DNA of 64,000 nucleotides, from positions 1-64,000 of the IMG/VR virus record IMGVR_UViG_3300025141_016305; one strand, 5' to 3'. Of the stretch, positions 4,542 to 62,185 are shown piece by piece. The notes under the pieces are model-generated. The model did no database searches, was not told the origin of the DNA, and saw only the letters and a program-made list of their open reading frames with translations. Within the stretch, counting starts at the first letter, position 1. Each line of letters begins with the position of its first letter. The position numbers were made by a program, and so were the translations under genes. This DNA is from a virus.

Positions 4542-5127
4542 AAGTATTCATTTCCGTAATGGCGGAAATATCCCTCAGGCATGCCTGGATCGTGTCGCTC
4601 CGATTTCTTTGTTTGGCGTCATCGATAATCCATTTTAACTTTTCAAAAGATCTCTGACAATTTATATAAAACTGAAATGCCTCTAAGGTTGCAACGAAAG
4701 ACGAATAGACAATAGATCTGGATCTTGAACGGAACTCAGCCAGGCCTAGGCCCTTTATTTCGACGCAAATTGAAACGTCTGTCTTTGCATCGGTTCTTGC
4801 CAAGTTTTTAGCCATAGAAAAGATAGGATTTATTTTTAAATCTGATAATACCATGTTTGATAAGCTGCTATATTTCTTTGAATATTCTTGCAAGCAACCT
4901 TTGAAGAGACAATCCACGAAACCCAACCCAGCTACTTGTTCTAAATTGACTATTTTTATTAATTCTCCATGAGTCTCTTCAAATGAGAAATCAACTTTAG
5001 TAAAATCATCCCGAATCGACTCGTTAACTTCAATGGAAATCGGGGATAATTTGGTTGTAGTCGTTTTGAGAGTTTTAGATAATATTTCTTTTACGCTGGT
5101 TCTTTTGTGTTCCTGTGGCGTCTTCAT
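4531..5127 (-). CDS. Hypothetical protein, 198 residues
   Basis: Unrecognised. The start codon shares one base with the stop of the 868-residue gene, so translation is coupled and a functional link with that protein is possible. The N-terminus is basic and Thr/Ser-rich (residues 8-27). The middle has a segment of alternating strand pattern (TDVSICVEIKGLGLAEFRS) followed by a helix (SIVYSSFVATLEAFQFYINC). No catalytic motif or membrane segment is seen. Confidence 0.65.
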   Translation of the reverse strand: MKTPQEHKRTSVKEILSKTLKTTTTKLSPISIEVNESIRDDFTKVDFSFEETHGELIKIVNLEQVAGLGFVDCLFKGCLQEYSKKYSSLSNMVLSDLKINPIFSMAKNLARTDAKTDVSICVEIKGLGLAEFRSRSRSIVYSSFVATLEAFQFYINCQRSFEKLKWIIDDAKQRNRSDTIQACLRDISAITEMNTYAK

Positions 5128-7733
5128 TATTCCAGCCTTTGCAGCCCTGTGGAGACCTTAAACATCGATTCTACGTTTGACAGTCTCTTAACATCCTTAA
5201 TAATTCTTGCTTTTACGTCTTCGGGAGCGTTAAACTCACCAGGCACAGAAGGTATAAACTTAATAGCCAAACCTGCGATATACCTTCTTTCTCCAATCTT
5301 CTTATTTCTTATCGCCACGGTAACAATAGTTACATTGGGCAAGGCGCGGAGGTCCGCTAGGATGTCATCAAGACCCCTGGCTTTTTCACTCTCCACCGTG
5401 AGACTATAAGAGATCATACAGTGAAACTTGTATATACCTCTCTGTCTTGATCTTCCTTTTTCCTCTTTTATGTTTAACTCTTCCTTTATAGTATCATAAA
5501 ATTTATCTTTTGTCATTAACTTTTTCCTAAAGAATTTATCTATTTCTTCTTGCAGTTGATTTTTAGCCCACGGCGGGATCTCTCTGGGGTTGTTTAGCCA
5601 TTCTTTAGCCAGTTGGCGAATGTCTCTTAAGATCTGTTCCCTCTCTTCTCCTTTTGCTTGATCAAACTTTGGAGATTTACCTGTTGATCTCACGATCTGC
5701 CCGCGCAACTTTTCCGCAAATACAGGATTAAAATACCCTTTATCGACAAGATACTTCGTAAAGTCCAAACTAAGAAGGCCTTCGTCGGCCGCGGATTTCA
5801 GTTGCCTTGAATAGGATTTTCCTGCGAGGGACCAATAGACACCTTGCGGCCCGATGCGGGACGTCCAAAATGCAATACTTTCGCCAGAAAGTGATTTTAC
5901 ATTTAATAGTTTAATTTTGTCAGGATCACTAACCTTTTTATTTAAAATGAGTGGCATTCTATCATTTTCACTCATCGAGTAGTGACGGCCCTGCTCTATA
6001 TCATCGAGGATCTCTTCAACTAGTTCGCCAGACATGCCCTTTGATGAAGATATAACAGAATTCACTCTGCCGGCGCCGGCTTGGATGAGACTGCTAAAGG
6101 GGCCGGCGGACTGCATTTTATAAATTTTTAAAACTTTATTTTCATCAGGATTGGCACCTTTGACGTATTCGTGCATTGCCTGCCCGTAAGGCTTCGCCAT
6201 GCTATCTAGAGGGATCTTATTAAGAGACAGAAGATTTCCCATAAGTTTTTCACTGATAAGGTGGTCTATTATCTCTTCTTTTATTGACAGTGGGGTCTCT
6301 GGCCCGCGCATAAAAGCGTGCATATAAAAGAATTTTTCATCTTTAAGTGGCTCTTTTTTGATTTCTTCTCCAAGCTCCGCCCAGGCCTGTGTCGCAAGGG
6401 ATTGGGCATCAACACCTTTAACAGGGCTATATGTCTCTGTTCTAATACCCATGACAGAAGCTACCTGGCGACCCAACACTGCAGACTTTAGGTTAGCTTT
6501 TAACAATTGGATCCTATGAGCTTCGGTGAGATTTCGGTTTCTGGATAAGCCATAAATATACTGTTGCTTTTGGGAATGAGACCAGTACTGGTCTGGTATC
6601 TCGTCATTCAGTTTTGCTATGATAAAATTAATAATATCTAGATCATCAGTATCCCTTGCCAGATCAATCCCTTGGGTGAGCTTCAACTGCCCAGTGAAAA
6701 ATAGATTTTTGAGTTCTTCAATGGACAATATATTAAAGTAGTCTGGACTATCTTTGTGGTCAAGCTCAGATGCTTGTAACCACTGCTTTATCATTGGTCT
6801 GTATTTCTCTATAGGTGGATCGTTTTGGCGTCCCTTAATTTGATAAACCTTATTGTTGCTGGCGCCAACATCTATTGTCGCATGCGGCTTGTTACCCGGA
6901 GACCTCAAAGAATATACAATTATCTCTCCTGATGAAACTACATCGCAGTAGCCCCCGACACAGTGACCCATGGCACAACCTTCAATATCCAAGTCGTTTA
7001 TTGCACTTCGGATCTTAAACTCGGGGCGATCATGCTCATCCACATCCTTTGCATCGTAGTACTCCTGGAATTCTTGTAATTCTTCATAATCATGAGCCCA
7101 GCCACACTTTAAGCCTTCTTCCTTTGTATAATCTCTTTCTCCTGCCGTGGGATCAACTTCGACTATAGAATATCCATTACTAAATTTATAAACTACTTTT
7201 TTGCCAACATACTTAAGCTTTCCGGATGTCAGCTCATCTTTACCAACCAAGCCGGCAGCGAGTTGGTGATGCCATTGAGTTGCTAGGTCGTGTACTTGAT
7301 AGAATCCAAGGTTCCATAAATCTTTTGGCAGGTCATTGGCAGCGTTGATATAATCAGATATATACCTTACATCATTGTTGTAAATGCTTAAGTCTTCAAA
7401 TTGAGCGCCGAATCCTGGTGCGTGGGTGCCATCAGTCTCTTCAAAGTAAACTGAGTTGGCTAGCCATTTTGCGAACATCTTACGATTGTTGTTGGGAAAA
7501 TAATTGTCTGGTAGGGACTCTACCCAGGAGACCATTTCGCTAGGAAATACTGGATTAAGTTCTTCTGGGTCGGCCTCCATCTTCTGAAGTCTTACGAAGT
7601 AATCTCTCACCTCTTCGTCGGGATTCTTAGGAACCTCCTTTTTGAGGTGATCAATGTTAATGTTTCTTAGAATTTTGGCATCTTTTTTAGCTTCCGCCAA
7701 AAACTCTCGCCACTTATTATGAAAATTTGTCAT
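5127..7733 (-). CDS. 868-residue PcfJ-like protein with capsid-targeting-like N-terminus
   Basis: The N-terminus (MTNFHNKWREFLAE, then AKK) resembles the T4 capsid targeting sequence of internal protein III (MKTYQEFIAE), with a potential prohead-protease cut after Glu14. Residues about 175-310 resemble PcfJ-like proteins: GCAMGHCVGGYCD (252-264), IIVYSLRSPG, KPHATIDV, and VYQIKGRQNDPP (297-308). A long helical repeat-like middle follows. The last 100 residues form a compact alpha/beta domain (FHCMISYSLTVES, LPNVTIVTVAI, LAIKFIPS) of ferredoxin-like pattern. I infer a head-packaged protein that may be injected with the DNA; PcfJ function is poorly known. A motif ACTATTTATA lies just upstream. 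Confidence 0.7.
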   Translation of the reverse strand: MTNFHNKWREFLAEAKKDAKILRNINIDHLKKEVPKNPDEEVRDYFVRLQKMEADPEELNPVFPSEMVSWVESLPDNYFPNNNRKMFAKWLANSVYFEETDGTHAPGFGAQFEDLSIYNNDVRYISDYINAANDLPKDLWNLGFYQVHDLATQWHHQLAAGLVGKDELTSGKLKYVGKKVVYKFSNGYSIVEVDPTAGERDYTKEEGLKCGWAHDYEELQEFQEYYDAKDVDEHDRPEFKIRSAINDLDIEGCAMGHCVGGYCDVVSSGEIIVYSLRSPGNKPHATIDVGASNNKVYQIKGRQNDPPIEKYRPMIKQWLQASELDHKDSPDYFNILSIEELKNLFFTGQLKLTQGIDLARDTDDLDIINFIIAKLNDEIPDQYWSHSQKQQYIYGLSRNRNLTEAHRIQLLKANLKSAVLGRQVASVMGIRTETYSPVKGVDAQSLATQAWAELGEEIKKEPLKDEKFFYMHAFMRGPETPLSIKEEIIDHLISEKLMGNLLSLNKIPLDSMAKPYGQAMHEYVKGANPDENKVLKIYKMQSAGPFSSLIQAGAGRVNSVISSSKGMSGELVEEILDDIEQGRHYSMSENDRMPLILNKKVSDPDKIKLLNVKSLSGESIAFWTSRIGPQGVYWSLAGKSYSRQLKSAADEGLLSLDFTKYLVDKGYFNPVFAEKLRGQIVRSTGKSPKFDQAKGEEREQILRDIRQLAKEWLNNPREIPPWAKNQLQEEIDKFFRKKLMTKDKFYDTIKEELNIKEEKGRSRQRGIYKFHCMISYSLTVESEKARGLDDILADLRALPNVTIVTVAIRNKKIGERRYIAGLAIKFIPSVPGEFNAPEDVKARIIKDVKRLSNVESMFKVSTGLQRLE

Positions 7734-7754: not shown

Positions 7755-7764
7755 TATAAATAGT
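7755..7764 (-). promoter_or_regulatory. ACTATTTATA motif upstream of the 868-residue gene
   Basis: The minus strand reads ACTATTTATA about 20 bases before the ATG at 7733, within the near-palindrome TTTACTATAAATAGTAAA (plus strand). It is one of eight related sites upstream of genes in this window and is a candidate phage promoter core; the function is inferred from recurrence alone. Confidence 0.4.
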
Positions 7765-10929: not shown

Positions 10930-12474
10930 TTATTCAGAAAAACCAAAACTCAACTGAGTGTCATCGGCTTTTTCTACTGAGGCAATGGCTTCATCTGTAG
11001 CCTCTTTCAGTAACTCAAGATCTTGTGTTGCAGCAAGTGCGTGCTGCTTTCTCCCTTCTCCATCTTGCGACCCCAAGAAGTATTTAGATACGTTATCGTT
11101 AAACCTTCCCAAAAAGGTATAGACTGGGGTGATTGTCTTTTTCATAATATCGCCATAAAGTAGCCATGTTTTTTTCAGCTGCTCATCGCCCAATAACACA
11201 TAAGCTATTTCTCTTTCATTTGCTATACTCTTCGCTTGATCTGGCGTGAACTCAAACTGTTCTTTTTTGATGTAGCCGCGGGTCTTTCTAAGTGCTGCTA
11301 TTATTTCGTTTTTGTCTCCAGTGCTTATAGCTTGCTGCACTGCATTGAACTGTTCACCGGACCCAAACAACCTAGTGGCTTTGACGCTCTTTGTATAATC
11401 TTCTTCCGAATACCCTATAACTGCAGAAGGCAAGTCATCAGCGGCTTGAATCGCTGACATTAATCTTTGTTTTTCTTGTTCTCCCTTCTTTCCTCTTAGA
11501 GAGAAGTTAGATTTTCCCCCAACCCTTTGTGAGAATCGAACCTGGAAGACTCTATCTCCTAGATCTTGAAGTGCTGCGACTAACTCTTCTTTGTTTTCTA
11601 CATTTTTTGTTGCCTTTGCAAATTTCTTGAATGGATCATAAAATACTTGTATGTAATTTGCAAGAGTAATTTCAAACTCGCTAAATAATAGGCTATCGGA
11701 AGCACCGGAACCAGAGCGTCTTGCATCTAAATAAACAACGTGATCACGGCCCCCGGCAAAGTGCTCCACCATGTTTCTCCAAGAACCCTTAACAGCAGTT
11801 TTAGGGTTAAGAAGTTTCAAAGAATACTCTCTATCACCAAGCTGGACGTCCGTTATTGGCTTTCCTGTGGCGTCATCTTCTGCTTCTACATCTGTAATCT
11901 GCACAGACCCTTCTCCAAATAATCCAGCGAGAAAGCCTTCAAAAATAAACCCACCAGCAGCCTCAGTAAATTGTGCCAATATTGTACTTAGCACCTCCAG
12001 TACAACCATAGTTGAAAGAACTTCTCCGACAGATGCCAGCTGAACTTCTCCAGTCGCTACATTATTGATGTGTGCTAGTTTTTCTTCCAAAGTACCACCG
12101 GGAATGCCTCGGGTAAAGCCTTCAATAATTTGCCTGTCGCGAGACTCAGGCACTCCCCAATCTTCCGAGATTCTTAATTTTGGCAGGCCGAGTTTGATTT
12201 CTTCTGCCGTAGGTTCATTTTCTTTCTCTAATATGATTTGATCGAGAGTCTTATTCTCGTTCAACATAGAACGAGATAAAGCGGAATAATCAATGCCAGA
12301 GAAGATTTCTAAAAGAGTATTTTGAAAGAAATCGTCCGAAAGAAGAGATCTCTGCTTGTTTGTTAGTGTCTTTTTTTGATCTTTCCAGACCTCTTCAAAC
12401 AAGGAAAATAGCCCATCCTTTGAAGATATCGTTTGTTTTTTATTCTCAGAAAGCACTTCTCTATACCAAGTCAT
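10930..12474 (-). CDS. 514-residue putative internal head protein with capsid-targeting-like N-terminus
   Basis: The reading frame extends to 12492, but that ATG is part of the ribosome-binding site GGAGGAGA of the ATG at 12474, which I choose. The protein then begins MTWYREVLSE|NKK, matching the ten-residue T4 capsid targeting peptide (MKTYQEFIAE) with a possible prohead-protease cut after Glu10. The rest is unrecognised: a Gly/Ala-rich hydrophobic stretch (about 155-200, VVLEVLSTILAQFTEAAGGFIFEGFLAGLFGEG) could insert in a membrane or bury in a core, then an alpha/beta region with WRNMVEHFAGGRDHVVYLDARR. I infer a packaged protein that may enter the cell with the DNA. Confidence 0.7.
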   Translation of the reverse strand: MTWYREVLSENKKQTISSKDGLFSLFEEVWKDQKKTLTNKQRSLLSDDFFQNTLLEIFSGIDYSALSRSMLNENKTLDQIILEKENEPTAEEIKLGLPKLRISEDWGVPESRDRQIIEGFTRGIPGGTLEEKLAHINNVATGEVQLASVGEVLSTMVVLEVLSTILAQFTEAAGGFIFEGFLAGLFGEGSVQITDVEAEDDATGKPITDVQLGDREYSLKLLNPKTAVKGSWRNMVEHFAGGRDHVVYLDARRSGSGASDSLLFSEFEITLANYIQVFYDPFKKFAKATKNVENKEELVAALQDLGDRVFQVRFSQRVGGKSNFSLRGKKGEQEKQRLMSAIQAADDLPSAVIGYSEEDYTKSVKATRLFGSGEQFNAVQQAISTGDKNEIIAALRKTRGYIKKEQFEFTPDQAKSIANEREIAYVLLGDEQLKKTWLLYGDIMKKTITPVYTFLGRFNDNVSKYFLGSQDGEGRKQHALAATQDLELLKEATDEAIASVEKADDTQLSFGFSE

Positions 12475-12496
12475 ATTACAGTTCTCCTCCAACTAA

Positions 12497-13210
12497 TTAG
12501 ATTATTTCGTCAGCAATACCCATTTTTATCGCTTCTTCTGCCGAGAAGTATGTATCTTTTTGGGTTTTCAAAATCTTGCGAATTTTTGCCGGGGTTAATT
12601 TTGTGTAATTCGCTAGACACTTTATATAACTATCTTGGACCCACTTGATCTCCTCTAGTTCGTTTTCCATTGAAAAGATGGTCCCTCCGGTGCCGGCCAT
12701 TACGTTGTGTAGCATGACTCTACAATTTCTGCCTATCTTTCTCTTGCCTGGGGTTCCGGCGGCGAGGATTGGCACACCAGCTGACATTACCTTTCCGATA
12801 CCGATGGTCTCAATGTCACAAGTTGCCCCTTTAATCGAATCCATAACATCAATAATCGAAAACATATCCGAAGCAGTGCCACCATGAGTTGAAACATACA
12901 TATTAATATTTCTTGCAACCATAATTGGCGAACTTTCCGGATCGGAAGGGTCCTCTAGCATAGTAGTTATAGCTGAGTTTTGAAAAAACAAAAGCGCAGC
13001 AACGACTTCTGATCCTCTCTTCTCTGTTATATCTCCATATAAATTTATAGTTCTTAACTCTGGATGTTCTTGTTCTGGAGGGTGAATGTTGTTAACAATA
13101 ATAAATTGTTCTTCTAATTTTTTCTTTTTTTTCTTTTGCTTTTCTTTCTTTTGCTTTTCTTTCTTTTGCTTTTCTTCTGCGGAAGGCAACGTGGAAACTC
13201 TTTTTATCAC
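12497..13210 (-). CDS. clpP: ClpP-family serine protease with Lys-rich N-terminal extension
   Basis: The protease core (about 50-237) matches ClpP (peptidase S14), with an apparently intact Ser-His-Asp triad: Ser143 in KVMSAGVP, His168 in RVMLHNV and Asp219 in QKDTYFSAEEA. Residues 13-32 are a Lys/Glu/Gln repeat encoded by tandem pyrimidine-rich DNA, not seen in usual ClpP. The start is GTG with AAGGAG five bases upstream. A T4-type prohead protease is present elsewhere, so this enzyme is probably not the main head protease. It may degrade host proteins or work with a host Clp ATPase. It has its own promoter after a terminator. Confidence 0.9.
   Translation of the reverse strand: MIKRVSTLPSAEEKQKKEKQKKEKQKKKKKKLEEQFIIVNNIHPPEQEHPELRTINLYGDITEKRGSEVVAALLFFQNSAITTMLEDPSDPESSPIMVARNINMYVSTHGGTASDMFSIIDVMDSIKGATCDIETIGIGKVMSAGVPILAAGTPGKRKIGRNCRVMLHNVMAGTGGTIFSMENELEEIKWVQDSYIKCLANYTKLTPAKIRKILKTQKDTYFSAEEAIKMGIADEII
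13120..13174. repeat. Pyrimidine-rich tandem repeat in clpP
   Basis: The plus strand carries repeats of a 15-base unit (CTTTTCTTTCTTTTG) plus flanking T/C runs, encoding the Lys/Glu/Gln-rich residues about 13-32 of the ClpP-like protein. Such repeats are prone to slippage; the visible units keep the frame. Confidence 0.75.
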
Positions 13211-13324: not shown

Positions 13325-13894
13325 TTACTTTCTATTCTTTTTTAGTTTCTCTGAAACTATCTTTTTTGTTATTCTTTTTAGGACCTCTTGCACAAGGGCT
13401 TCCTGCTCTTGCATGACTGGTTCCTCTTCTTCCTCTTCGGGTTCGCCTACATCTCCCAGATCTTCCATGTCGTCCATGGGCATTTCTTCCTCGGCGGCGT
13501 CGGCACCTACGAGCTGCTGAAGCCTGGAACCTAAATCAATTAAGAGCCTTGCTTCTTCTTCCGATAAGCTCATATCTGCTTCTGCTGCCGGGGCGTCTGC
13601 TTCGGGCTCTCCCATATCCATCTCTAACTCTTCATCTTCGACTGGGACTTCTTCTTCTTCGTCTCTGGCATACACTCCCATGCCCTCTTCGACGTCTGCT
13701 TCGCGGTTGGCGTTTTCGCCATCAAGATTTTCTTCGATCTCTTCGTCTTCATTAACCTCTTCTTCGTTTTCTTCAGTAATCTCTTCTTCGTTGAAGTTTT
13801 CCTGGATAAAGCTGTTAGACAACGGACCAGTATTGGCCAGTGTCATGAAGCGTCGAATCGTGCTCTCTGAAAGTAGTTTTTTCTCATCACTCAT
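13325..13894 (-). CDS. Acidic head/core protein with protease-site-like N-terminus
   Basis: The 189-residue protein starts MSDEKKLLSE|STIRRFMTLAN, where LSE at 8-10 fits the T4 prohead-protease pattern (I/L-x-E). About residues 35-145 are extremely acidic (runs of Glu and Asp), and the end is basic (VLKRITKKIVSEKLKKNRK). Acidic proteins with this make-up occur in T4-type prohead cores. I infer an internal or scaffold protein. It has its own upstream motif (13940-13949) and a strong terminator, so it is probably a single-gene transcript made in quantity. Confidence 0.65.
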   Translation of the reverse strand: MSDEKKLLSESTIRRFMTLANTGPLSNSFIQENFNEEEITEENEEEVNEDEEIEENLDGENANREADVEEGMGVYARDEEEEVPVEDEELEMDMGEPEADAPAAEADMSLSEEEARLLIDLGSRLQQLVGADAAEEEMPMDDMEDLGDVGEPEEEEEEPVMQEQEALVQEVLKRITKKIVSEKLKKNRK

Positions 13895-13939: not shown

Positions 13940-13949
13940 TATAAATAGT
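13940..13949 (-). promoter_or_regulatory. ACTATTTATA motif upstream of the acidic protein gene
   Basis: A perfect copy of the recurring motif on the minus strand, about 46 bases before the ATG at 13894 and separated from it by an AAAGGAG ribosome-binding site. The gene is monocistronic, so the motif is a reasonable promoter candidate. Confidence 0.4.
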
Positions 13950-20504: not shown

Positions 20505-21267
20505 TAATTATATCTTCCAGGGTCATGTCCAAAAACTTTACATTATCAGAATCTTGATAGACGCTATTATCCTTTTCGAAAACCAGACGCTTCACATGTT
20601 TAACAATTGGTTTTCTATATTTCGGGTTACCGTTTTTATAAAAATTCATGAATGCGCCATGGGCGCCGATTGCTTCCAGATGTCTTTCAATCACAAATCT
20701 AGCCATTGTGTCTGAGTACTCAAAGCTATAAAGCTGCTCTTTTGTTAAAAAGGATTCGGTGACACAATCACTTACAAAGGCACACCCATCAATTCTATCC
20801 GAAATATAAAAATGAGCTTGTCTAACAAAATTCTCGGCCGTCTCTAAACTAGGTAAGTGCTCTTTTTTGCCGCCCAATCTGGAAACCTCAAAATCATCTA
20901 AGACAAGATAAGAATCGGCTCTCGCTAACGATTCTAAATTTTCGTGTTTTATTCCTGTACTGTCAAAAATAATGCAACTTTCAAACTCATACTGAAATAT
21001 CTTTCCGGACTCAGATACTTTGATTTTATTTTCTTCTATCTTAAAAGTATCAAATTTATCGAAACTGCACCTTAAACCTAAAAGGCCCATCATAAAATTG
21101 AGCCTGTTCCAGGCTCCGGGCTCAGTCTTATGTCCTAAAATTGGAACTGATAATTTCCTATAAAACATCGGTGGTGAGCGCCTGATTGAAATGTAGTTAT
21201 ACTGATTTATAAATGCATATAGGATTGACTCTATCGTGCTACCTATTACTACATTCTTTAAAAGCAT
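20482..21267 (-). CDS. Unknown protein, 261 residues, Rossmann-like N-terminus
   Basis: The start LLKNVVIGSTIESILYAFINQY resembles the first strand, turn and helix of a dinucleotide-binding Rossmann fold, but the glycines of GxGxxG are partly replaced. The middle has FESCIIFDSTGIKHENLESL and YLVLDDFEVSRLGGKK, both strand-helix units. No family can be named. It is coupled to its partner (285 residues) by a 23-base overlap, and the pair may act together. Confidence 0.6.
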   Translation of the reverse strand: MLLKNVVIGSTIESILYAFINQYNYISIRRSPPMFYRKLSVPILGHKTEPGAWNRLNFMMGLLGLRCSFDKFDTFKIEENKIKVSESGKIFQYEFESCIIFDSTGIKHENLESLARADSYLVLDDFEVSRLGGKKEHLPSLETAENFVRQAHFYISDRIDGCAFVSDCVTESFLTKEQLYSFEYSDTMARFVIERHLEAIGAHGAFMNFYKNGNPKYRKPIVKHVKRLVFEKDNSVYQDSDNVKFLDMTLEDIINEAPTKR

Positions 21268-23528
21268 ATGCCAATTTCATAATCATATCTATAAAATGCT
21301 GCCAGAGCTGTTAGTATATAATTCTGGGCTCTTGTTCGATTATACGCCTGCTCTTCACTTTCAGAGTTTGGACCCAGACAAGCTTCATCTATAATCGACA
21401 TAAGGTTTTCATACATCTGGTTTTGGTTCCAAGTCAGTTCAAATTGTCTACCTCCAGTTTGCACAGCCCAGTCTTCCCAAGTCCCGGGGTTATATGGCAT
21501 TATAAAAGTGTATAACTTAAACCTTGCTATACCAGTTAAAGAATCTGTTATTACATCCGGAGCTATCTCTGGATCTAACCACGATTGGTCTTCTTCATCG
21601 GTAAAGACAATTACAATTTTGTCTACATTTTGTCTCCAATTAATTTTGAAATTTTCTTTACTTGGTGTTGATGTCGTGTTCGAGCGCCAATTGGCATTTC
21701 CGACGTCAAAATTAGCATTTGGAGAAATATCCCTTATAGAAAAATACAGAGCATCCCTAAGCATTTCTTCACTCGTATCCATACCATCACTATTAAGAGC
21801 AGCAAAAGAACTAAGAAAGTCTTCAAAAGGAGAGATATCAGAAATTAAGTATAGTCGCTCCCTTTCCAGATCATCTTGTCGTGGGCCGACGACTAAGCCC
21901 CATTGTAACTTTCCTTGATCTTGAAAGTGGGCTGCGAATCTGTTTAGAGCTGATCGGACGGCTGCTATTTCTTCTGCCATTGAACCTGACCAATCAACAA
22001 TGAATAAGATATCTGTATCTTTAATTTCTTCGCCGTAGTCAGTCACTCCATCGCAATCATTATCGGCTCCATCGCAGACCTCCTGTGAAGGTATAATCTC
22101 ATCTTTGCAATAGTCTCTCCGAAACCTATCCCAGTTGTCGGTGTTTCCCCATTGACCTTGATTGCAAATCATACTTCCAGCTAAACACACTCCAACGTCC
22201 AAAGTTTCTTGTGGGCCGGTGTAACATGCCACCATCAATTCTTCATCTATCTCTTGGTCGCAATCTTCATCAAAGTTATTGCATATTTCATCCTGTATAA
22301 TCATACCAGTATACGGATCGCATTCCTGGTCTGTCAATATATCTAACTGTGTGCATAAAGCTAGACACTCAGACATTGTTAAATTGGTGCACTCCGGTGG
22401 ATCATTACACTGACAAGCTTTGAATCCCTGACCGCAAGTAAGTGGTGGCTCCGAGCAAGGAATCAACACCCCTACATCATCTACTGTGCAGTCACAATTA
22501 AGTCCTTCATCTATTAAGCCATCACAGTCTTGATCCACACCATCACAAGGATCAGTTTCATCTGCAGGTTGAGGAACAGTACAGGATATCCAACTACCCA
22601 CTGAACAGGTTTCGAATCCAACACCGCAGATAGTTTCGCATTCACGAATCAACTCTTCATCTATCTTTCCATCACAATCGTCATCGATCCCATTACATTC
22701 ATCGACAGGGACTGGGCCGCAGGTGTCACATTCATTTCGCTGACCTTCGTCTATTTTTGTATCGCAGTCATTGTCTTCATAATCACAAACTTCCTCTTGA
22801 GCGGGTGGGGCATCGCAATCAATGATCTGCCCTTCAATGCAAAAGCCCCAGCCCATCCCACAATCTAATTCGCACAAAAACCTTCCCTCATCAACATGGT
22901 CGTCGCAATCATTATCTTGACCATCACACATTTCATCCAAGCAAGGCTGACAAGGACCCTGGACAAGACTGCCCTTATTACAAACAACTCTTTGCATTCC
23001 AAAGCGGCCATCGCCAAGTTCGCAATCAAACCACTGAATTTGATTGATTTCAGTGTTTGGAGGACATTCAAATGCTAATTCGCATGGTTCCCTGTTAATA
23101 ATTTGCGGTGGTGGGCAACCCTCATCTATGCCAAATTCACAAGGCTGATTAGACTCATCGCAGATCGCCACAGTAACCCGAGTTCTATGAATTTGATTAT
23201 CTGGACGAGGAGGGCAATACCATTGCTGCTGCTCGCAGCATTGAGGATTGCACCTGCAGAAGAACTCGAAATCAGCAGGGCTTTCCTCTCCATCACATTC
23301 ACTGGTGAATCCGACTTCGCTTACCGGTGGCAGATCTGAGCCGCCAGGGGTAGCTGGAGTGGATTCATCGATCGGGACAGATCCGCCGGTGGGCTCCTCG
23401 TCTACAGGCGCTGTTGGCACCGATAAGGCTGGTTGTTCTTCTGGGGGTGGTGTCCCATACTCCGAAGATGGTGTTTTTTTATTGCATGATATGGCTGCAA
23501 TTGCGGCCAATAATACTGCATATCTCAT
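21258..23528 (-). CDS. Large lipoprotein with MopE-type Cys/Asp repeats and a vWA domain
   Basis: The 756-residue protein starts with a lipoprotein signal (LLAAIAAISC, lipid Cys15) and a Pro/Glu-rich linker. Six copies of the CDGxDNDCDGxxDEG motif lie at about 201-215, 248-262, 278-292, 328-342, 415-430 and 485-500. This is the MopE/PF11617-like metal-binding repeat known from Myxococcota and relatives. A von Willebrand A domain follows from about 506, with the metal-site DWSGS at 512-516 and a later TDEEDQSW. The protein should sit on the outer membrane or cell surface, anchored by lipid. It is unique in the window in composition and looks transferred from a host. A role in superinfection exclusion, adhesion or host mimicry is only inference. 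Confidence 0.9.
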   Translation of the reverse strand: MRYAVLLAAIAAISCNKKTPSSEYGTPPPEEQPALSVPTAPVDEEPTGGSVPIDESTPATPGGSDLPPVSEVGFTSECDGEESPADFEFFCRCNPQCCEQQQWYCPPRPDNQIHRTRVTVAICDESNQPCEFGIDEGCPPPQIINREPCELAFECPPNTEINQIQWFDCELGDGRFGMQRVVCNKGSLVQGPCQPCLDEMCDGQDNDCDDHVDEGRFLCELDCGMGWGFCIEGQIIDCDAPPAQEEVCDYEDNDCDTKIDEGQRNECDTCGPVPVDECNGIDDDCDGKIDEELIRECETICGVGFETCSVGSWISCTVPQPADETDPCDGVDQDCDGLIDEGLNCDCTVDDVGVLIPCSEPPLTCGQGFKACQCNDPPECTNLTMSECLALCTQLDILTDQECDPYTGMIIQDEICNNFDEDCDQEIDEELMVACYTGPQETLDVGVCLAGSMICNQGQWGNTDNWDRFRRDYCKDEIIPSQEVCDGADNDCDGVTDYGEEIKDTDILFIVDWSGSMAEEIAAVRSALNRFAAHFQDQGKLQWGLVVGPRQDDLERERLYLISDISPFEDFLSSFAALNSDGMDTSEEMLRDALYFSIRDISPNANFDVGNANWRSNTTSTPSKENFKINWRQNVDKIVIVFTDEEDQSWLDPEIAPDVITDSLTGIARFKLYTFIMPYNPGTWEDWAVQTGGRQFELTWNQNQMYENLMSIIDEACLGPNSESEEQAYNRTRAQNYILTALAAFYRYDYEIGICF

Positions 23529-56274: not shown

Positions 56275-58020
56275 TTAGGCTGTTGCACCTGCCTCACCAA
56301 GGAGACCACGTACGATAACGAGACCATACATATCTGGTCGAACCATCTTCTTCGCATAGCGCGTCATGACGCCCTTACGAGGCACGAAATCTTCCGTGCC
56401 GAAAATGGTAGGTGTGACCTGGAGTGGTACATACGGGGCGTATACAAATCCACTTTCGAGGAAGCTACTACCCTTTCTACCAACAAGGACAAGGTTACGG
56501 ATGAAGTAAGGATCGACATAAACATCGAATTTCTTACTCAAGCTACCCGCCTTGACAGCGCCGATGGTACCACGATCCTGATCGGCGGTTACGCTTGCGC
56601 GGAAACCACTTGTGAATTCAAGAATGTTGGCAACCTCAGGAGAACAAACAACAAAGTTTGCTCCGCCTCGGAGTGTCTTACGGTGGATCTGAGCGCTGAC
56701 ATCGTTGATAGTCTCAATGAGTGTCTCATACCACTCACTGACTGTACCAGTGAAGTCAGGCGCAGCAGAACTTGCACCAATCTCAGCACCTGTGCTATTA
56801 ACGAACAGGCCTGGGGATCGGCTCCAGTAACGAGTACCAGCTGATGCACCTTCAACAAGCTCACTAAGAAGCTCACGATCAATCTCAAGAGCAATCTGCT
56901 CAGAAAGAATGCCGGTAAGCTCAACCTCAGCATCCAAGTTGTGATAAGCATTAAGGTCCTGGCCAAGCTCAGGGGTCCATTTTGCCTTCAGTTTCTTGGT
57001 CTGCGCGGTGACAGCGATGCTATCAACCTTGATGTCAATTTCGGCAATACTTGTAGTGCCTTGCGCGGCGCCAGAAGCCTTAGCTCCGCCAAGAGAGCCG
57101 CCTGCAGGGGTTGGTTCTTCAAGTCCCCATATACCATGAGTAACAGAACCAGCTTCACCACCACTTTCAAAAGTGTCGGCTACTGGATATTCACATCTCA
57201 TCACTCCTGTACTGGCTGCAACTCCACCGTCATCAGCAACAATGGTTACGGTAACCTTTCCGGTGGATGAGGAGTAGCTAGTCAATCGACGAACGATGGT
57301 GTCGTTGTCGGCCAAGCCTGTCAATACCAAACCGGCGAGCGCACCTTTATCAAGTCTTGTAGGAGCATCAAAAATGTACTGCTCAACCTGTGTGCTATCA
57401 GTAAGGGCTAGCAAGTCAGCATCATAACGAATCAACTTCTTATTAGCCTCGGTAACGCTGCCATTTAGAGCAAATTGAACTGCCCCAGCTGTTGGGTCGG
57501 CCAAGGTAACCATTACTGAACCTGTAGGAGCAGACAATTGATTACCAAAGTTGTAGTGACCACCTGCGCCGGCGTCATTGAAAGAAGCAAGCGGATCAGA
57601 AAGATCAACACCGCCTGTTAACTGAGCACCGACCACGTTACCACCATACACTGAAAGGGCATCAACTGCTCCAAGCCTGGTGTCACTGTGTGTGAAGTCA
57701 AGGAAAAAGATGAGGCCGCTTGGCAAGCTCATTGGCTGAACCGAAACGAGATCATTTGCGATCAACCCGCCGAATACACGACGGACGATCGGGAAAGCAA
57801 CTGCAGCGAAGCCTTCGACATCGCCTGCAGACATCGCAGAAGCCTCGCGAAGAAGCTCCTTTGCCTGGTTTTCGAGAAGAACTGCCATACCTTGCTTCTG
57901 CTGGCCGTCATCTAGGCCTTCGAGCAAGCCGGTAGCTTCCCATTTGTTTAGAAGTGCTGCTCCTTCTGCGCGAAGATCGCGAGACTGAACTCCTTCTGTT
58001 AATTTTTGTAAAATAGACAT
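56275..58020 (-). CDS. Major capsid protein (gp23-like)
   Basis: A T4-type capsid protein of 581 residues with HK97 fold. Family segments include VEGFAAVAFPIVRRVFGGLI, ANDLVSVQPMSLPSGLIFFL, WTPELGQDLNAYHNLDAEVE and KAGSLSKKFDVYVDPYFIRN. The N-terminus is probably removed by the prohead protease after LLRE59|A60, similar to T4 gp23 cut after residue 65. The phage GroEL/GroES pair may fold it, as T4 gp31 with host GroEL folds gp23. It follows the scaffold gene by 27 bases and has AGGAGGTG just upstream. Confidence 0.96.
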   Translation of the reverse strand: MSILQKLTEGVQSRDLRAEGAALLNKWEATGLLEGLDDGQQKQGMAVLLENQAKELLREASAMSAGDVEGFAAVAFPIVRRVFGGLIANDLVSVQPMSLPSGLIFFLDFTHSDTRLGAVDALSVYGGNVVGAQLTGGVDLSDPLASFNDAGAGGHYNFGNQLSAPTGSVMVTLADPTAGAVQFALNGSVTEANKKLIRYDADLLALTDSTQVEQYIFDAPTRLDKGALAGLVLTGLADNDTIVRRLTSYSSSTGKVTVTIVADDGGVAASTGVMRCEYPVADTFESGGEAGSVTHGIWGLEEPTPAGGSLGGAKASGAAQGTTSIAEIDIKVDSIAVTAQTKKLKAKWTPELGQDLNAYHNLDAEVELTGILSEQIALEIDRELLSELVEGASAGTRYWSRSPGLFVNSTGAEIGASSAAPDFTGTVSEWYETLIETINDVSAQIHRKTLRGGANFVVCSPEVANILEFTSGFRASVTADQDRGTIGAVKAGSLSKKFDVYVDPYFIRNLVLVGRKGSSFLESGFVYAPYVPLQVTPTIFGTEDFVPRKGVMTRYAKKMVRPDMYGLVIVRGLLGEAGATA

Positions 58021-58047: not shown

Positions 58048-59175
58048 TTATGTTGTCTTTATGCCTGCCAATCTTTGCATTCTATTGAATAAAGGGTTGG
58101 CATCCTTTTGGTTTTGCTCTTTTCGAGCTGCGACAAGTAGTGAAGACTTCCTTGAAACCATTTCACTTAATGTTGTTTCTTTCCTGTCGACTTTGGAAGA
58201 GGCAACGTTTTCGCTTAATGTCTCAAATACAATCTTTGCTTCTTGTACTGTTGCGGCTTTCGAAATGGCTTCGACAACTTTCTTTCTTTGTCGCTCATTC
58301 AGGGAGGCATTCTCTAGAGCCTGGTTAATATACAACAACTTTGCATTGGAAACATTCATGGTTTCCAATTTTTCTTGCAGAGTATCAAATGCTGTATTAT
58401 AATTTTCGTTCTGCGCCTTTAACTTAGTGGCGGCAGAAACTAGAACTTTGTTTTCTTTTTGTAAGGCTGCAACTGTTTTTCGCAGCTCTTCGTTTTCTTC
58501 TTTTACTTTAGTATCTTGTTCGCGAGCGAGGAGCATCTGCTCGTACTCTCTCATGATGGTTTCAGGAGTTCCTGCCCATCCGGATTTTTGTGGTTCAAAA
58601 TCGACCCTTACGGCTTCCATAACCTCTTCGAGATCGATTTCTTCATCAATATCCATTTCCTGGAGGACTTCTGCAACCATTGCTGGGGTGATATCTACTC
58701 CAACATCTGCAACTGGTGCGGGCTCTGCTTCGAAAGAAGGTGCGGTTTCTATATCGGCAACGTCAGCGACAAATTCATCATCGTCTATATTAATTCCAAT
58801 TTCATCCTCTTCAACCTCGCCATCGAGGGCCCTTTCGTTCTCGTCTTCTATATCCGCTTCCAGCGAATCCAGCTTAATATTAATAATTTCGTCATCGTCA
58901 TCCGTCATAAAAGCATCGGGAATGTTACTTATAATTGAATCCGCACCAAAGTCTATCTCTGAATCTTCTTGATCAATTGGCTCTTCTTCTAATTGCGTCT
59001 GGTCGTCACCGAAGAGATCATCCATTGCAACTTCTTCTTCTGCTTCGAGGAGTCTAGACATTGCTTGTTTTATTTCATCAGAGTATTTCTCAACAACGAG
59101 TTGTTCTGCATTTTTAAGTGCAGCTTCCTTTAAGGCGGTGGCGTCTATAATAGCTCTTTCAAGTAGATTTGACAT
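58048..59175 (-). CDS. Prohead core scaffold protein (gp22-like)
   Basis: A 375-residue very acidic protein. Long helices at both ends (LLERAIIDATALKEAALKNA; LKAQNENYNTAFDTLQEKLE and VSNAKLLYINQALENASLNE) bracket an Asp/Glu-rich middle. The sequence NERQRKKVVEAISKAATVQE and the terminal IFETLSENV are characteristic of gp22-type scaffolds. It forms the inner core on which the capsid assembles and is digested by the prohead protease. It lies directly upstream of the capsid gene and downstream of the protease/S21 cluster. Confidence 0.85.
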   Translation of the reverse strand: MSNLLERAIIDATALKEAALKNAEQLVVEKYSDEIKQAMSRLLEAEEEVAMDDLFGDDQTQLEEEPIDQEDSEIDFGADSIISNIPDAFMTDDDDEIINIKLDSLEADIEDENERALDGEVEEDEIGINIDDDEFVADVADIETAPSFEAEPAPVADVGVDITPAMVAEVLQEMDIDEEIDLEEVMEAVRVDFEPQKSGWAGTPETIMREYEQMLLAREQDTKVKEENEELRKTVAALQKENKVLVSAATKLKAQNENYNTAFDTLQEKLETMNVSNAKLLYINQALENASLNERQRKKVVEAISKAATVQEAKIVFETLSENVASSKVDRKETTLSEMVSRKSSLLVAARKEQNQKDANPLFNRMQRLAGIKTT

Positions 59176-61160: not shown

Positions 61161-61583
61161 TTACTTTAAAACATTCCACTTTTGGCCGGCGAGGCCAAAT
61201 AACCCACTTATATCAACGCCCGCATCATTAGGGTCTCGCCCTGACAGTGCGCCGGATGCTGTAGAGGCGCCTGGTGCACCACTTGATTTAAGCGGCTCTG
61301 TACCTTCGAAGACGTTTTTCATCCTGGAACTTCCCATTGCATCAAGCATTTTTCTTTTGGTCTCAAGGAGCTTCTTTCTTTTTTCTTCTTCTGCTTCCTT
61401 TTTCGCCTTTAAATTAACTTTTGGTTTAGTTTTTTGTGGTTGCTGCTTTTGCTCCACGACTAAACCTTGGGCCTTTGTTAATCCAAAAGCAACTTCTGCT
61501 ACCAAATTAGATAATATGCCTTCCTCAAAAAGGATTTCTTTTACACACTCTTTTATTATCTTTTTTAATTCTGATTTTTTCAT
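61161..61583 (-). CDS. Hypothetical head-core-like protein, 140 residues
   Basis: The N-terminus MKKSELKKIIKECVKEILFE is amphipathic and contains an I-L-F-E site that could be cut by the prohead protease. The middle is Lys/Glu-rich coiled-coil (VNLKAKKEAEEEKRKKLLET) and the end is Gly/Ala/Ser-rich. It lies between the protease and bS21 genes, where T4 has small prohead core proteins (gp67/gp68). I infer a core or scaffold accessory. Confidence 0.6.
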   Translation of the reverse strand: MKKSELKKIIKECVKEILFEEGILSNLVAEVAFGLTKAQGLVVEQKQQPQKTKPKVNLKAKKEAEEEKRKKLLETKRKMLDAMGSSRMKNVFEGTEPLKSSGAPGASTASGALSGRDPNDAGVDISGLFGLAGQKWNVLK

Positions 61584-62185
61584 TATTTTTCAAACTTATA
61601 TAATATGCTGTTTAAAGCACGATTAATTTTATCCCCCTTGTTGAAAATATTTGTTGGTCCTTTGGCTTCCGTCATCATAAAGGCACCGGGGGTCGATGGA
61701 TCTGAAACCATGTCAAAACATATTAATTGAAAATCGTCCTCTACCATGGTTTGCCCGTTCCTCTCTGTAACTGAGCCCATTCCTCTAGAGGAGATGCCCA
61801 ACATTACTCCTGATTCTACAAGTGATCTAAGTATTTTTCCGGAAGGCGTTTCTAGAACTCGTATAGTTCCCATGCATTTATTGCCTTCCATCCAAATTTT
61901 CGTCACCATGTGTGAGGCATTTGCAAGATTGATAACTGAAGAGTCGGGATGGTCTAGCTCTCCTAGGGCTCGGTTTTCTTTGACCAAGCGAGCAAAATTC
62001 TTAACTTCTCGCTCTAAGATAGAGTGAGGATAAACTCTGCCATTTCCGTTTTGAGTCTCAGACATCTGCATTAATCCGGAAAGCATAATTCCGCCGTCGG
62101 AGACAAACTTCTTATCAGCCTCTGATAAAAGATCTTGGCAAACGCCACCTTCGCATAATTCGTAATATTCTCTTATAAGTTTCAT
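61583..62185 (-). CDS. Prohead core protease (gp21-like, U9/S80 family)
   Basis: The ATG at 62185 with GAGGT is chosen over an in-frame GTG at 62197, giving 200 residues. Catalytic His and Ser of the herpesvirus-assemblin-like fold appear as GELDHPDS and LGISSRGMGS, then FDMVSDPSTPGAFM, all typical of T4 gp21. It cuts scaffold, capsid and internal proteins after I/L-x-E during head maturation. The neighbourhood (scaffold, capsid) is the T4 order. Its likely substrates are the N-termini of the 868-, 514- and 189-residue proteins. Confidence 0.94.
   Translation of the reverse strand: MKLIREYYELCEGGVCQDLLSEADKKFVSDGGIMLSGLMQMSETQNGNGRVYPHSILEREVKNFARLVKENRALGELDHPDSSVINLANASHMVTKIWMEGNKCMGTIRVLETPSGKILRSLVESGVMLGISSRGMGSVTERNGQTMVEDDFQLICFDMVSDPSTPGAFMMTEAKGPTNIFNKGDKINRALNSILYKFEK

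Follow-up and report, generated by a model that had tools for sequence, protein, structure and literature searches.

The 868-residue protein p868, encoded in bases 1-64000 of the 175,011-base virus record IMGVR_UViG_3300025141_016305 (this stretch of 64,000 bases is referred to as the window), is probably a cargo protein packaged in the phage head: its 14-residue N-terminus, MTNFHNKWREFLAE, would be one form of a portable peptide (the tag) by which a clade of marine T4-like phages would direct proteins to the capsid, the tag would be cut off by an S77 prohead protease, and the protein would be ejected into the host. This reading starts from direct observations, namely the features of the sequence, their specificity and conservation, the swapping of protein bodies behind the peptide, and a motif upstream of the gene. 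The original prediction had singled out N-termini ending in L-x-E on three proteins, p868, a 514-residue protein (p514) and a 189-residue protein (p189), and these are present as described, all on the minus strand, with start sites that agree with those of their relatives. None of the three has a relative among 50,697 named phage records, and evidence was therefore drawn from uncultivated viral contigs (IMG/VR), including contigs L004, L007 and L017; motif counts are based on the 712 genes of four related genomes (G000 to G003, with G000 being the source record).

A portable N-terminal peptide on p868 and on unrelated proteins

The pattern W[RK].[FYL][LVI].[EQ] has 12 N-terminal occurrences in the four related genomes, compared to no internal one, and it is absent from the N-termini of all 1,418 genes of random viral contigs used as specificity control. 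When each start codon of these genomes and of five related contigs was scanned in all six frames, 18 matches were obtained, nearly all of them at real gene starts, and in the sister genomes this short pattern is embedded in the near-invariant sequence MKLIMENW[RK]x[FY][LV]xE. The start of p868 reads MTNFHNKWREFLAE, followed by AKK, with W8-R-x-F-L-x-E14 in register with this longer form. A position-specific scoring matrix (PSSM) learned from the tags of other phages was run on the 172 genes and 52,062 internal windows of the source genome; p868 ranked second among the genes and outscored all internal windows, and its residues W8, L12, E14 and A15 do not vary among four full-length homologs (41-57% identity). 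The best match in the genome, also above all 52,062 internal windows, was a 397-residue protein (154796-155989, outside the window) which starts with MKHQLIMESWRKYLRE and has a C-terminal FtsK-gamma domain of the KOPS-binding type (PF09397, E 2e-9); it is a candidate for an injected DNA-binding protein.

Since hydrophobic-x-Glu is common near N-termini, such matches might have arisen by chance, an explanation to which we give hardly any credence. It does hold for the bare motif on which the original prediction relied, as [LI].E within the first 24 residues was observed in 185 of the 712 genes with 169 expected, and on sequence score alone it also holds for p514 and p189, as neither N-terminus scored above chance with the PSSM (E about 2.3 and about 3.8, respectively). 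The purely N-terminal occurrence of the extended motif and its absence from the random contigs speak against chance, which is refuted for p868 by the conservation of its N-terminus in homologs and across body swaps.

The distribution of the tag was assessed with an exact degenerate-codon search of IMG/VR for MKLIMENW[RK], leaving residues 9-14 free save for residue 9, which is constrained by the partial codon MR. At least 120 stretches matched, compared to none for one shuffled version of the peptide, while 257 Gb of bacterial and archaeal genomes contained a single match, at an apparent gene start. The peptide opens at least 82 distinct proteins, which represent at least 47 unrelated body clusters (no detectable similarity at E 1e-3), with an M23 peptidase, a GNAT acetyltransferase, a cytosine methylase and P-loop proteins among the bodies that carry it. 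Among the matches listed, the cluster-weighted residues 9-14 are R/K, K/R, F/Y, L/V, x and E, with E14 present in 74% of the clusters and conservation dropping after this residue. Tagged genes are arranged in tandem, and G000, G001 and G002 also have them in a variable island bordered by conserved genes. On sequence grounds, the follow-up of p868 has led to a clade-wide portable tag, which is wider than what the original prediction had found, and the tag system looks like a new, clade-wide variant of the capsid targeting of bacteriophage T4. A literature search for the tag peptide gave nothing relevant.

The common N-terminus could also be a by-product of DNA mosaicism, spread with a mobile promoter or start region, and the tandem clusters of tagged genes, many with ACTA[TC]TTA upstream, would fit such an origin. 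We consider this very improbable: the 24 bases encoding the tag come in at least 35 different versions with synonymous codon variation, so that it is the peptide and not the DNA which appears to be kept, the 868-type tag has no more than W, R/K, F/Y, L and E in register, and neither the upstream spacing nor the ribosome-binding site is constant.

A second portable N-terminal peptide, MK[ILM][TS]KxxLxx[IL][IV]xEE, was noted on unrelated proteins (14 genes vs 0.3 expected in the four genomes), with ACTA[TC]TTA upstream of 10 of the 14, and a low number of matches was also obtained in random viral contigs (4 vs 0.4 expected). The variable island of tagged genes is flanked in three genomes by a gene for a 1060-residue protein (G000 157364-160546, outside the window), in which a ligase-like EKTDG...ARNKG was seen by eye; its N-terminus ends in LLLEGG, and it has no Pfam match above cut-off.

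Exchange of the p868 body between conserved ends

The slot of p868 in G002, L007, L004 and L017 holds a 595-625-residue protein with a middle unrelated to that of p868, flanked by the same neighbours (116- and 198-residue genes). These body-swapped proteins start with the same kind of N-terminal peptide (MQFNKQWKEYLIE and MNFNNTWRNYVNQ/K), and they share with p868 a conserved C-terminal domain (Table 1), with the predicted order beta-alpha-beta-beta-alpha-beta at low model confidence. By sequence comparison the body of p868 is exchangeable, with unrelated bodies located between the same tag and C-terminal domain at one locus. In 7/7 homologs [LI]xE is found directly N-terminal of the C-terminal domain, in the context [LI]xE|EKGRSRQRG, which by analogy with T4 Alt suggests a second cut at this position.

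The original prediction also placed a PcfJ-like domain in one of the two large proteins, and this was confirmed for p868 (PF14284), where H257-C258-x-G260-x-Y262 is invariant. The region also matches three phage families (phrog_3169, 8470 and 7484), while outside this region p868 bears no relation to the plasmid protein, and a literature search for PcfJ-like proteins in phages found no report. Structure prediction, proposed earlier as a route to enzymatic domains, did not deliver these: the AlphaFold2 model of p868 is moderate (57), with a helical-repeat stretch in the body, and had no Foldseek match at E 0.001 or better. The matches were weak only, to importin-alpha-like helical repeats, one PcfJ-like phage protein and a phage S-adenosylmethionine (SAM) lyase (of a length near that of the C-terminus), and we make no claim for enzymatic activity from these. 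PDB profile searches with p868 and p514 gave nothing useful.

Instead of being injected, p868 and p514 could be prohead core or assembly proteins which are cut and lost. The fixed gene slots with conserved neighbours and the late-type upstream motif agree with such a role, as does the position of p514 next to p189, a ClpP-type protease and GroEL. However, the p868 body is swapped at the same slot, unlike an essential core protein, and p868 combines a PcfJ-like domain with helical repeats instead of being a coiled acidic scaffold, and a role of this kind is in our view decidedly unlikely.

A shared upstream motif and the proposed processing of head proteins

In three genomes, no other upstream word is as enriched as ACTATTTA; this motif is stranded, and has about 22 further sites in G000. 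It precedes the genes for the tail sheath, head-tail adaptor, baseplate wedge and a scaffold candidate, as well as p189, p868 and many tagged genes, and is located upstream of p868 in 4/4 genomes checked. It was found upstream of 7/12 tagged genes vs 40/686 others (with orthologs not being independent), and in a wider set upstream of 33/87 tagged loci vs 3% of random positions. This distribution indicates that ACTATTTA is probably the late-promoter element of the clade, and makes late expression of p868 and the tagged genes likely, possibly alongside the head genes.

The gp21-like protease of the original prediction is a clear S77 prohead protease by profile search (Table 1), and such a protease was found in 14/23 tagged contigs vs 5/17 random contigs overall, and in 11/12 tagged contigs of at least 110 kb vs 3/6 random ones. 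The T4 protease gp21 cleaves after L/I-x-E (PMC9026906), and the capsid protein of the clade keeps K-L-T-E close to residue 9 and, ahead of the mature domain, L-L-R-E, which is consistent with this rule applying in the clade. A ClpP-type protease is a second candidate prohead protease beside S77 on the basis of its profile matches, and the gene order p189, ClpP-type protease and p514 is kept in relatives.

These data also bear on the idea that the tag docks to another phage structure or to a host target, such as the baseplate, a replication compartment, a membrane or a chaperone. Conservation alone names no partner, and some of the M23 peptidase and P-loop or methylase-type tagged bodies could act in the cell. 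We nevertheless regard such docking as unlikely, as the conservation ends exactly at [LV]-x-E, following the T4 gp21 rule, the capsid protein keeps L-x-E, the late-type upstream motif is common to virion genes, and the islands in which unrelated tagged genes are grouped are comparable to the T4 internal proteins.

The N-termini of p514 and p189

While the capsid-targeting-like N-terminus proposed for p868 held up strongly as a portable tag, that of p514 did so moderately, as a separable conserved peptide, and that of p189 poorly, as part of a single family. The start of p514 is an ATG with GGAGG, preferred to the TTG at 12492, since the Met it encodes is also where relatives begin. Residues 1-9, M[ST]W[HY][KRE]E[FLV]LS, are 56-100% identical (5/9 to 9/9) between relatives while the bodies are 21-26% identical, and by this measure the peptide is conserved and separable from the body. 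The invariant residues of the p514 body (Table 1) hint at a PD-(D/E)xK-type nuclease, a lead for which there was no profile match and for which the AlphaFold2 model was too poor to be of use (predicted local distance difference test, pLDDT, 42).

In p189 the conserved block runs past E10, and the remainder is acidic with a conserved C-terminal coil. Almost all proteins with the p189 N-terminus (62/65 distinct proteins) fall into one body cluster, although the acidic low complexity may inflate this clustering. Because it represents a single acidic orthologous family with conservation beyond L-x-E, p189 is likelier to be a prohead core or scaffold-type protein than injected cargo, a role which we judged unlikely on the same grounds.

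Comparison with known systems

The T4 internal proteins have only the capsid targeting sequence (CTS) in common (PMC3012670), and a beta-galactosidase fused to the CTS is packaged into the head and delivered, with targeting and processing depending on different residues of the peptide (PMC9026906). Like T4 with its IPI, IPII and IPIII, the phages described here have an N-terminal peptide of about 10-19 residues ending in hydrophobic-x-Glu on unrelated bodies, and encode an S77 protease. The IPIII start cited in the original prediction, MKTYQEFIAE, agrees with the sequence, and is equal in length and pattern to the MTWHKEFLSE of p514 relatives. In contrast to the CTS, the tag of the clade has 14 residues, W8-[RK]-x-[FY]-[LV]-x-E14, and is nearly invariant over at least 47 body clusters vs three small T4 proteins; the bodies of its candidate cargoes also differ from the T4 internal proteins by including large and enzymatic proteins. 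The T4 Alt protein, a head-packaged ADP-ribosyltransferase, is large like p868 and is processed at both ends (PMC9026906), for which p868 has candidate N- and C-terminal sites; the sequences are unrelated, and it is p868 that has a C-terminal domain kept across swapped bodies. Ejection (inner-body) proteins of phiKZ and SPN3US likewise have N-terminal propeptides cut C-terminal to Glu according to excerpts of the accounts cited (PMC9026906, PMC10052503, PMC7411985). These phages belong to another lineage, and the same excerpts mention no short portable peptide on unrelated bodies.

Weighing the evidence for head delivery

Several observations weigh against p868 being a tagged, head-delivered cargo. 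As the bare L-x-E is not enriched, it carries almost no weight as evidence, and the T4 peptide resembles the tag in pattern only (Y/W..F-I/L-x-E), which is too short to prove descent. Some of the slot relatives of about 600 residues have Q or K at the P1 position and not E, and one replicative helicase gene also has ACTATTTA upstream. The tagged contigs share one capsid lineage, hence their association with S77 is confounded and gives no independent support, and a search of named phages for the tag found no tagged one, with the clade being uncultivated. With regard to p514, a close relative in L004 (80% identical) starts directly after the peptide and is without it, and residue 10 is E, E, E, N, K and T across relatives (LSE in three, LSN, LSK and LST), which argues against the fixed cut after Glu10 that had been predicted. 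As T4 IPI is also without Glu10, this variation is compatible with targeting, and p514 probably uses a related targeting peptide with a non-conserved processing site.

On balance, we favour p868 as a head-packaged cargo, and infer its targeting, cleavage, packaging, injection and any host effect from the features described above. The protein would be expressed late, and as the head is assembled late in infection its tag would attach to the prohead core, upon which the S77 prohead protease would cut after Glu14 and perhaps also at the C-terminal boundary; the mature cargo would stay among the DNA in the head and be ejected into the next host. More tentatively, the clade may run a general head-delivery system, with interchangeable tags (WRxFLxE and MKITKxxLxxIIxEE) on dozens of unrelated cargoes in variable late-gene islands, together with at least one slot, that of p868, where the cargo is exchanged while the tag in front and a C-terminal domain released by the protease stay fixed; in such a system, any gene gaining the tag could become an injected protein.

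Neighbouring genes and feature coordinates

The features discussed are listed in Table 1. The window also encodes a phage GroEL (9299-10867; PF00118, phrog_5725) with a position conserved in relatives, a UvdE-type UV endonuclease (1644-2588; PF03851, E 2e-59), and a 756-residue protein (21258-23528) that begins like a lipoprotein and has MopE metal-binding repeats as well as a weak VWA domain. Outside the window, at about 117500-141000 of G000, a long run of genes resembles by eye those for sugar-nucleotide, sialic-acid-type and glycosyltransferase functions.

Table 1. Location of the features discussed (window coordinates unless a genome is named)
Feature	Position	Strand	Description
p868 coding sequence	5127..7733	minus	N-terminal tag, PcfJ-like domain, helical-repeat middle and conserved C-terminal domain
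p868 tag, residues 1-14, MTNFHNKWREFLAE	7692..7733	minus	W8, R9, F11, L12, E14; candidate cleavage after E14
PcfJ-like domain of p868, residues 239-310	6804..7019	minus	PF14284, 36.3 bits vs curated cut-off of 25
p868 I-K-E, residues 755-757	5463..5471	minus	Candidate second prohead-protease site at the boundary of body and C-terminal domain
p868 C-terminal domain, residues 758-868	5130..5462	minus	58-78% identical across unrelated middles
ACTATTTA upstream motif	7757..7764	minus	31 bases before p868 start
p514 coding sequence	10930..12474	minus	514 residues; no known family; E179, D195, K220 invariant
p514 residues 1-10, MTWYREVLSE, then NKK	12445..12474	minus	Conserved N-terminal peptide, Glu10 variable
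ClpP-type protease, between p189 and p514	12497..13210	minus	PF00574 E 7e-30; phrog_94 head maturation protease E 4e-23
p189 coding sequence	13325..13894	minus	189-residue acidic protein; starts MSDEKKLLSE, then STIRR
p189 residues 1-32	13799..13894	minus	Block LLxE(N/S)T[IV]RRFM.LA...E32; L8, E10 and E32 invariant in 9 aligned homologs
ACTATTTA upstream motif	13942..13949	minus	55 bases before p189 start
gp23-type major capsid protein	56275..58020	minus	PF07068 E 6e-74
Candidate scaffold/core gene beside capsid gene	58048..59175	minus	By position; ACTATTTA upstream
S77 prohead protease (gp21-type)	61583..62185	minus	Candidate processing enzyme; PF03420 E 1.6e-31; phrog_207 E 2e-54
Second-peptide genes	G000 73154-73324, 156338-156919, 170443-172611, 174321-174716 (outside the window); G002 182713-183818		

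Implications

To our knowledge, it is mainly for T4 and a few giant phages that the proteins accompanying the DNA into the host have been established. Should the tag indeed target proteins to the capsid, a search for it would suffice to list from sequence what a whole uncultivated clade injects, and this short peptide could be used to load proteins of choice into phage heads. PcfJ-like, FtsK-gamma and many uncharacterised proteins would then also become accessible to study, as candidates for counter-defence or take-over during the first minutes of infection.

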